DNA of 32,319 nt from Acidobacteriota bacterium (GTDB lineage Bacteria > Acidobacteriota > Blastocatellia > Pyrinomonadales > Pyrinomonadaceae), in contig QHXI01000069.1 of assembly GCA_003222895.1 (NCBI GenBank), positions 1 to 32,319 on the forward strand. The letters are read 5' to 3'. Position 1 is the stretch's first letter; each line of letters begins with the position of its first letter. The notes below the pieces were generated by a model, which worked only from the letters and a program-made list of their open reading frames with translations, did no database searches and was not told the origin of the DNA. Shown here in pieces: positions 18,851 through 19,992 of this stretch. Made by a program: the position numbers and the translations under genes.

Positions 18851-19525
18851 CTAACCTTTATCGGCCTTCGAACTTGCCGCACCCATCTCTTTCAAGACTT
18901 CCGGATCCACGTCGTCTACAGCTGCTTCCTGCTTTAGGGTTCGCGCCAACATCACTGAACCGATGATCGCCACGAGCAGCAGCACGCTGGCAATTTCAAA
19001 TGGCAGCGCGCCGGTTGTGTAAAGCGCCGTGCCCACACTTTCAGTCTGCGACGAGAGCCGATTAACGCCGGTCGCGCCCGCCGGCAGGTTCGATTGCTCA
19101 GCCGCGCGTTTCGCGTCAGCCTGCTGCACGGCAGAGTCGTCGCGCTTTTGCAGAGCCTGGTAGCCCCGCGGAATTGCATAGATCACCAGGATGCCGGCCA
19201 ACAGCGCGAGGAAGACAAGCGCCGTCGTCACTTGCGCCGGCCGATTAAATATCGGCGCGCGTCCTTCTTCTTCGGCACCGACGTTGACCAGCATGATAAC
19301 GAACAGAAATAAGACCATCACGCCGCCGACGTAAACCAGAATTTGCACGCCGGCGATGAATTCAGCGCCCAATAGAATGAAGAGTGCCGCAACGGAAACC
19401 AGCGATGAAATCAGAAACAGCGCAGAGTGCACCGCGTTGCGCGCCATGACGGTCAAGAGACCTGCCAGAATCGCAGCGATTGAGAAGACCCAGAAGAAGA
19501 CTGATTCCCAACCAGATAAGATCAT
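18851..19525 (-). CDS. nuoJ: NADH-quinone oxidoreductase subunit J
   Basis: A 224-aa membrane subunit of complex I. Helices 1-3 (VFFWVFSIAAILAGLLTVMARNAVHSALFLISSLVSVAALFILLGAEFIAGVQILVYVGGVMVLFLFVIML) carry the conserved glycine-rich third helix (IAGVQILVYVGGVMVLFLFVIML) whose pi-bulge is tied to proton pumping. A fourth helix, TTALVFLALLAGILVIYAI, is followed by a soluble loop and a fifth helix, LLLVAIIGSVMLARTL. The ATG at 19525 overlaps the stop of the four-helix-bundle gene by ATGA. Directly upstream are ATTGCCG repeats and not a ribosome site, so nuoJ translation probably depends on coupling to the inserted gene. Confidence 0.94.
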   Translation of the reverse strand: MILSGWESVFFWVFSIAAILAGLLTVMARNAVHSALFLISSLVSVAALFILLGAEFIAGVQILVYVGGVMVLFLFVIMLVNVGAEEEGRAPIFNRPAQVTTALVFLALLAGILVIYAIPRGYQALQKRDDSAVQQADAKRAAEQSNLPAGATGVNRLSSQTESVGTALYTTGALPFEIASVLLLVAIIGSVMLARTLKQEAAVDDVDPEVLKEMGAASSKADKG

Positions 19526-19929
19526 TGCCGATTGCCGATTGCCGATTGCCGATTGTTTTTCTGCATCCGAGCCCGCGCCAGAGATCGAGAAGCGGATATC
19601 CGCGATTGCGCAAAGATTCTTGTTAGTTCTTCAGCTTCGTTGAGCAATGGCTCAACCTGATTTAGTTTCAAGCGGGCCGCTTCAATTATTATCTCCATCC
19701 AATATGCACTTTCGTCTGCTTCTTCTTCACAAGTGCCCATCTTCGCAACGAATTCAGCCTTAGATCGACCCCGGCAAGCTGCTCGATAATTTGCTCCGAC
19801 CGAAGTACCGGAACGAATTAATTGTCCACCGATGGCTCTGCCGGCAACGGTATTCGGCAAAGCGGCAACAAGTTTGAGAACTCTCAATGCGAATTGCTTA
19901 GTCCGCTTCTTGAGTTCGTCACTAGTCAT
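19522..19929 (-). CDS. Four-helix-bundle protein (23S rRNA intervening-sequence family)
   Basis: A 135-aa protein from the ATG at 19929 (MTSDELKKRTKQFALRVLKLVAALP); the open frame upstream of that is repeat sequence. The family signature is clear: GGQLIRSGTSVGANYRAACRGRSKAEFVAKMGTCEEEADESAYWMEIIIEA. Members occur in 23S rRNA intervening sequences and at many other sites, and are distantly like the Avd protein of diversity-generating retroelements; no enzymatic activity is known. The C-terminal residues NNRQSAIGNRQ are encoded by the flanking ATTGCCG heptamers. The gene lies between nuoI and nuoJ, bordered on both sides by inverted arrays of the same heptamer, and overlaps nuoJ by 4 bp. It looks like an inserted cassette. 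Confidence 0.88.
   Translation of the reverse strand: MTSDELKKRTKQFALRVLKLVAALPNTVAGRAIGGQLIRSGTSVGANYRAACRGRSKAEFVAKMGTCEEEADESAYWMEIIIEAARLKLNQVEPLLNEAEELTRIFAQSRISASRSLARARMQKNNRQSAIGNRQ
19524..19555. repeat. Tandem ATTGCCG heptamer array, nuoJ side
   Basis: Four perfect tandem ATTGCCG units at 19524-19551 plus ATTG at 19552-19555. The array starts inside the nuoJ start codon and covers the C-terminal codons of the four-helix-bundle gene. Confidence 0.95.
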
Positions 19930-19960
19930 GTTGTGGGGTGGAAGCCCCCTCACTGTACGC

Positions 19961-19992
19961 CAATCGGAAATCGGCAATTGGCAATCGGCAAT
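19961..19992. repeat. Inverted, degenerate CGGCAAT array, nuoI side
   Basis: CAATCGG, AAATCGG, CAATTGG, CAATCGG and CAAT follow one another, the complement of the array at 19524-19555 with two changed units. It ends 2 bp before the nuoI stop codon. Together the arrays form imperfect inverted ends around the four-helix-bundle gene. Confidence 0.9.

Follow-up and report, generated by a model that had tools for sequence, protein, structure and literature searches.

An S23/IVP gene between inverted heptamer arrays in a complex I operon: probably a member of a widespread mobile-element class

What is a small four-helix-bundle gene, framed by inverted arrays of a heptamer, doing between two genes of a complex I operon? 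The question is raised by an acidobacterial genome, of which we analyzed a stretch of 32,319 nucleotides (contig QHXI01000069.1), referred to as the window in the following. A sequence-only reading of this stretch had proposed a protein-coding element that moves by an undescribed route and has heptamer arrays as its ends. The features concerned are listed here.

19995..20528, minus strand: nuoI, left neighbor of the insertion site, with 4Fe-4S domains; its junction was compared in relatives
19961..19992, minus strand: arm upstream of the S23 gene, a degenerate array of 4.57 heptamers with five GATT/ATT cores
19522..19929, minus strand: S23/IVP four-helix-bundle gene, with PF05635 and TIGR02436 matches and the fold of 2rld and 2gsc
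19524..19555, minus strand: arm downstream of the S23 gene, an inverted array of four perfect ATTGCCG units plus ATTG, which encodes the C-terminus of the protein and overlaps the nuoJ start
18851..19525, minus strand: nuoJ, right neighbor of the insertion site (PF00499)
18210..18268, no strand assigned: heptamer hairpin with no gene inside that occupies the nuoK-nuoL junction (score 15, period 7, loop 11)

The two arrays are 32 nt each, stand in register and inverted, are 94% complementary and lie 405 nt apart; the cassette thus has the complementary-ends stem around a reading frame that is typical of 23S rRNA intervening sequences, and its RNA folds end to end, closing through the arms. On the minus strand, the element begins with the outer array, 2 nt from the nuoI stop, and at its other end the TGA of the S23 gene and the ATG of nuoJ overlap as ATGA (19525-19522), while the start of the S23 gene is likely the ATG at 19929 rather than a TTG within the array. 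The description given by the sequence-only reading is accurate on these points: the perfect units on one side and the degenerate inverted array on the other, the fit of the gene between the nuoI stop and the nuoJ start, and, from the sequence and its open reading frames, the repeats that encode the C-terminus and overlap the nuoJ ATG. As single heptamers, ATTGCCG units are just mildly enriched in the window (17 against a shuffle mean of 7.64, with 17 reached in one of 100 shuffles), and it is therefore the arrays and their inversion that matter.

The cassette does not lie in an rRNA gene, as a 23S rRNA intervening sequence does, but between complex I genes: its neighbors encode a 4Fe-4S ferredoxin-type protein (nuoI position), complex I chains 6 (nuoJ) and 4L (nuoK), a chain 5-type protein (nuoL) and NADHdh (nuoH). 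From 19522 to 19992 it codes for the S23 protein alone and not for a transposase, as an insertion sequence would, and Y1_Tnp, the one transposase family searched in the home genome, yielded no related enzyme with heptamer arms at its gene. Rfam returned no match in the window and Padloc none either. The same operon contains a second small gene between nuoL and nuoM (15261-15722), a nucleotidyltransferase of unknown function (DUF6036, PF19502, 30.3 bits), and REP-type palindromes free of a heptamer period occupy further junctions (20553-20618, 23665-23750 and 23296-23382), the first two kinds of which recur in the home genome (L168 and L348; L167).

The protein itself is readily classified. It scores 56.4 bits against PF05635 (curated cut-off 33.8) and 80.6 bits against TIGR02436 (curated cut-off 24), in agreement with the earlier assignment to a four-helix family known from 23S rRNA intervening sequences. 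Its predicted structure (pLDDT 97.5) has the four-helix-bundle fold of the solved S23 members, with 2rld and then 2gsc as the best matches, followed by Avd of diversity-generating retroelements. Both solved relatives have five chains in the entry, and the title of the 2gsc paper, as cited in PMC10053308, mentions five four-helix bundles as the quaternary structure; a crystal entry with five chains is not in itself proof of a pentamer in the cell. At the nuoI-nuoJ site, dN/dS is 0.042 in the two ortholog pairs that could be estimated, with dS saturated, which indicates that the S23 protein is under purifying selection there.

Are such arms a peculiarity of this copy, or do they accompany the family? 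The home genome (G000), which is 96% complete, contains 17 family matches, and 12 of these 17 rows exhibit inverted flank pairing, their best scores being 15-34; in 20 shuffles of each locus, no score exceeded 12. L016 and L017, both among the 12 rows, are pieces of a single broken copy, and the number of elements is therefore 11. Their repeat words vary, from ATTGCCG in the window to AATCGTA (L006), AGTCTGG (L007), TGAGGGA (L011) and an octamer (L012). Some copies in this genome are decayed (L015 and L016/L017, on C25 and C88), one by an internal stop and one by a split between frames, with arms still recognizable.

Beyond this genome, we scanned named genomes with the window subfamily and kept the best 80 loci, whose titles name Verrucomicrobia, Acidobacteria, Bacteroidetes, Anaerolineae, Planctomycetes, Cyanobacteria, candidate phyla and others. 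Arms scoring at least 15 were found at 60 of these 80 loci, compared with 14 of 400 mismatched flank pairs and, at the same loci, none of 66 distant flanks; for a score of at least 13, the counts are 65 of 80, 24 of 400 and 2 of 66. Base identity at lags of 7, 14 and 21 is 0.351, 0.323 and 0.327 beside the genes, versus 0.258, 0.254 and 0.291 at a distance of 800-1000 nt. The full set, assembled from the best named loci, the relatives and loci from 29 named genomes, comprises 165 distinct family genes from many phyla after omission of identical cores, HMM scores below 40 and five genes with short flanks; they are non-independent samples, as some share a genome or are orthologs. Of these 165 genes, 138 have arms scoring at least 13 and 126 arms scoring at least 15 (67 and 26 of 2000 mismatched flank pairs, respectively), and 27 remain below 13. 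The sequence-only reading had proposed to look for the arrays at homologs elsewhere, and inverted tandem arrays indeed flank 138 of the 165.

The genes also have a preferred setting: between co-directional frames, 105 of the 165 have the sense orientation and 14 the antisense one, with 11 between divergent frames, 10 between convergent frames, nine ambiguous and 16 with short flanks. Five of six plasmid copies in named finished records have arms scoring 16-26; the sixth scores 11. Several plasmid genes (L338, L341, L337, L339) are located within defense-type operons, namely between cas6 and cas4 in Anabaena sp. 90, after the DISARM gene drmD in Planktothrix, and between DUF1156 and a HEPN protein in Gloeocapsa and Chlorohelix. 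At 16 family-gene loci searched with Rfam, just one tmRNA and two tRNAs were found, all in one locus, and none of the 16 genes lies in an rRNA gene at the gathering threshold. In a Parcubacteria locus (L079), the family gene is found between tmRNA and tRNA genes.

The arms vary little in their number of units. In 133 elements with arms scoring at least 13 and a clear period, each measured against its own periodic consensus, an arm has a median of 4.57 copies at period 7 (232 arms), 4.5 at period 8 (26 arms) and 4.39 at period 9 (8 arms), and 61% of all arms have 4 to 5.5 copies. Since the copies per arm are alike for periods 7, 8 and 9, array length scales with the period while the core count stays at about five. 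A stricter count in 103 elements, made after removal of identical cores, has its mode at five on both sides (41 left, 48 right), with four cores in 35 left and 25 right arms.

If the words differ, do they differ at random? Across 6545 cross-phylum pairs with less than 70% protein identity, repeat similarity and protein identity correlate with r = 0.463, a value reached in none of 1000 label permutations (maximum 0.106) and practically the same after removing the GC difference (0.465). For single elements, the effect is moderate, the nearest protein from another phylum averaging the 68th percentile of repeat similarity. In a clustering, the window subfamily (68 elements) mostly goes with GATTNNN- or GAATGCG-like words, and a group of eight proteins with an AWQKAR-like start with AGTCTGG-like words of period 7 or 9. 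For KAHxLTL proteins of acidobacterial relatives and of a cyanobacterium (L004, L024, L310), the word is AGCTNTC, but for other KAH proteins (L033, L312, L313) it is not. The repeat is thus specific to the subfamily, in units of 7, 8 or 9 nt, and the notion of a single shared heptamer word has to be given up; the correlation itself could also come from whole elements being inherited as units.

A second expectation of the sequence-only reading, that the arrays are tied to the gene, did not hold either. Among 29 nuoI loci (L127-L155), arrays accompany the gene in three (G000, G003, G004), while in 14 the junction contains a gene-less heptamer hairpin, with words differing between genera; the rest lack a clear array or a recognized downstream nuoJ, or are truncated at the end of a contig. 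For a closer comparison, we took from the sampled stretches and the site loci 60 hairpins with loops of at most 250 nt, non-identical arms and no family gene inside, several of which share one operon and are thus non-independent. In 51 of the 60, the polarity is the inward one of gene-bearing arms, in seven it is the opposite, and two are ties; among strong matches the ratio is 48 to 2. The hairpins have 100 arms of period 7, with 4.57 copies in the median, and the loops have a median length of 26.5 nt. The few arms of period 8 or 9 are shorter (3.69 and 3.22 copies, respectively), and some of them belong to another repeat type. The hairpin at the nuoK-nuoL junction of the window is a case in point, with an arm word resembling the AGTTTCA of another subfamily (L040) and a similarity of 19 inward versus 10 outward. 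Because arm length and polarity match those of the gene-bearing copies, we infer that the gene-less hairpins are non-autonomous derivatives rather than counter-evidence.

Their distribution was surveyed in a sample of about 1.0 Mb chosen without regard to the family gene, except that L127-L155 were chosen for nuoI. Hairpins with loops of 388-431 nt contain a family gene in four of four cases; eight rows with loops of 512-1987 nt seem to link arms of neighboring small hairpins, and one loop of 183 nt has no open frame of 70 codons. In counts that still include period-8 and period-9 rows resembling another repeat class, ten genomes with at most one family match have nine heptamer-type hairpins in 354 kb sampled (five in G007), ten genomes with at least six matches, the home genome excluded, have 14 in 320 kb (eight in G037; one, in G018, gene-bearing), and the home genome has two in 240 kb. 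G007 harbors gene-less hairpins, yet no family gene was found in this genome, which is 88% complete. In the nuo operons of several relatives (L132, L133, L139, L145, L148), adjacent gene-less hairpins share one word, for instance three CCGTGAA hairpins within 3.5 kb of L139, which suggests local spread. Separate from these are inverted arrays with longer and less regular periods (L168 9261-9423, L196 4274-4418, L197 6545-6623, L001 182-286, L191/L192); their CACAGATTA-, ACAGGATTA- and GGAACAAACG-like units match no family-gene arm, and they are possibly the ends of another element class.

These observations bear on a plain explanation, namely that the heptamer arrays are simple-sequence repeats growing in gene junctions by slippage, with template switching matching the two sides and the gene being incidental. 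Heptamer repeats are over-represented in many bacteria (available text of PMC4692102), the Coxiella heptamer copy number varies between strains (available text of PMC4990558), and the units of one arm differ less from each other in the window than in G003 and G004. Against this stand the rarity of arm scores of at least 13 in mismatched pairs (67/2000, versus 138/165 genes) and in distant flanks (2/66, and 0/66 at 15), the narrow copy number, the word that follows the protein and the polarity kept by the arms. Inverted pairing, copy number, protein correlation and polarity together disfavor an origin by slippage alone, which we regard as very improbable.

Does the cassette come and go at its site? 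In one relative (G006), nuoI and nuoJ directly overlap in the same ATGA, leaving a bare junction; this genome groups with G000 at a weak 71% bootstrap, and the bare junction may reflect either loss in G006 or separate gains. We further used the joined outer flanks of 11 other G000 elements as probes against six congeners; of 50 loci fetched, three had no match to both flanks, which left 47 site rows. The junction measures 25 nt or less in 12 of the 47, covering six of the 11 sites; by eye, 12 rows contain a short heptamer-type hairpin that lacks a gene and often has a different word, and five a 416-517-nt insert with array ends, while the remaining rows contain other palindromes or longer inserts. 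Empty sites free of gene and arrays, which the sequence-only reading had suggested looking for, therefore exist, at nuoI/nuoJ in G006 and, with 25 nt or less, at six of 11 other sites in at least one relative. No target-site duplication was recognized by eye in the joints of the 47 rows, whose alleles are strongly diverged. In three congeners (G002:C14, G003:C432, G004:C667), a second gene of the ferredoxin type (nuoI-like) has a family gene at a distance of a few hundred bases.

The same alleles help to weigh a reading in which the cassette is an RNA-level module that is not mobile by itself. Its arms would form a double-stranded stem or a protein-binding leader that cuts out or autoregulates the message, and it would spread solely through horizontal transfer of the ordinary kind, with recombination at conserved junctions. 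The end-to-end RNA stem, the sense bias of 105 to 14, the preserved ATGA overlap and the in vitro cleavage of the Coxiella element by RNase III (PMC4990558, as far as its text is available) all speak for such a module; however, gene-less hairpins are common and differ in their word between genera at one and the same junction, several unrelated words coexist within one genome, and bare or nearly bare alleles occur at six of 11 sites within the genus. We consider this reading unlikely, with a modest share of the probability.

If the element moves, a transposase encoded elsewhere could move it. REP-type palindromes are a known target of Y1 (RAYT-like) transposases, and the home genome has eight Y1_Tnp matches, seven of them over the cut-off, such that the cassettes might be non-autonomous elements moved in trans, with the four-helix protein as a passenger or regulator. 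Yet heptamer arms are found at none of the eight Y1 loci in G000, which have other palindromes; the closest case, L346, has one palindrome pair with a lag identity of 0.6 at period 9, which is not a heptamer array. As these palindromes were detected, the arm detector is not blind to inverted ends. Y1 transposition in trans was therefore set aside and has, in our estimate, little probability.

Retro-mobility, finally, would have the excised, pentamer-bound RNA copied by a reverse transcriptase, as with Avd and its partner enzyme in diversity-generating retroelements. The sense bias fits, and so does the predicted structure, which resembles both Avd (4dwl) and chains of the retroelement ribonucleoprotein (8ubb, 8ub7, 8ube; Foldseek E-values of 0.08-0.3). 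However, the 96% complete home genome yields no match to PF00078, the one reverse transcriptase family searched, and the partner that characterizes a diversity-generating retroelement was thus not found there; to this route we assign hardly any probability.

We therefore favor the view that the cassette probably belongs to a widespread class of mobile elements, in which one S23/IVP gene lies between inverted arms of about five tandem cores. At the sequence level, the class is supported by its architecture, its spread over phyla, the link between word and subfamily, the near-constant copies per arm, the gene-less hairpins and the presence/absence alleles; the class and the repeat-protein link are well supported in this respect, while the movement of the cassette is inferred from presence and absence, and neither a transposition event nor an enzyme for it came to light. 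Of the original proposal, the protein-coding element with array ends and an undescribed route of movement is retained, backed by arms at 138 of 165 genes and by empty sites; its single heptamer word and the exclusive tie between array and gene are not. To our knowledge, array ends, a repeat-protein code and no recognized transposase together fit no known element type. The class is apparently undescribed: a full-text search of the open-licence literature found no general link between S23 genes and heptamer arrays, which is no proof of absence.

How might such an element work? The spacing of 7, 8 or 9 nt, while the cores stay at about five, leads us to propose that an S23 pentamer recognizes the arm on a flexible single strand of RNA or DNA, each subunit binding one core; recognition of the ends by the S23 protein is likely, and one core per subunit plausible. 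The paired arms, as an RNA or DNA hairpin, would be the substrate for excision and insertion of gene-bearing and gene-less copies alike, with the strands joined by a host or trans-acting enzyme. Copies would survive where they do little harm, mostly in sense, at gene junctions and with the stop and start codons of the neighbors kept, as in the ATGA here; survival in protein operons would parallel that of the rRNA copies, whose stem is cut out by RNase III. More tentatively, and with somewhat less than even confidence, we suggest a new class across many phyla, in which the ends of an element are read, as five tandem cores, by its own non-enzymatic pentamer, which mobilizes its own copy as well as gene-less hairpins with the same word. 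Members or relics of this class would include rRNA intervening sequences and a large part of the intergenic heptamers that lack an explanation. Such a class would join three things: S23 proteins and rRNA intervening sequences, the five-chain S23 structures of 2006-2007, which came with no function, and the excess of intergenic heptamers. It would also make the function of the S23 family directly testable, as it predicts protein, repeat word and stoichiometry, and it points to mobile elements whose ends would be defined by a binding ring instead of a transposase.

Several known systems share parts of this architecture. The Xanthomonas and Nostoc heptamers are similarly intergenic, with a modal number of four whole units and convergent pairs, of which the GGGAATC arrays of Xanthomonas campestris form 70; they are explained by G-quadruplexes, whereas most words of the present elements are not G-rich, and a term search of the available text gave no S23 gene link (PMC4692102). 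A solved S23 protein and GGGAATC pairs coexist in X. campestris; no Xanthomonas is named among the best 80 loci or the plasmid loci. The TAACTGA repeats of Beggiatoaceae resemble the present arrays in being heptamer arrays just upstream of start codons, but are mostly direct and of one word, and a term search of the available text gave no S23 (PMC4679880). MITEs and REP/RAYT systems are likewise short elements with inverted repeats that lie at gene junctions, some with a gene and some without; the present class differs from them in having no transposase gene in the element and in its tandem-array ends with a protein-specific word, and the Y1 genes of G000 have other ends. Avd shares the predicted fold (4dwl, target-normalized TM of 0.77-0.80) and is present as chains in a solved ribonucleoprotein, but Avd systems differ from the cassette in that its home genome has no PF00078 reverse transcriptase.

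Closest is the 23S intervening sequence of Coxiella burnetii with its S23p reading frame, which has the same protein family, complementary ends around one frame, a length of about 430-470 nt and, at one end, tandem heptamers; its terminal stem measures 28 bp, and the GACAGAT units, variable in number between strains, precede the S23p start (available text of PMC4990558). That source, in its available text, still termed the function and origin of S23 proteins and rRNA intervening sequences unclear in 2016, and no mention of a repeat-protein link, copies per arm or gene-less copies was found in it. In CPR bacteria, too, rRNA insertions can carry the S23 protein family (PMC11270868, available text). 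The Coxiella element lies in rRNA and the cassette in a protein-coding operon. To say that the cassette works like an rRNA intervening sequence is fair; membership fails on location, and the class probably includes or adjoins these sequences, which would then be a special case of it.
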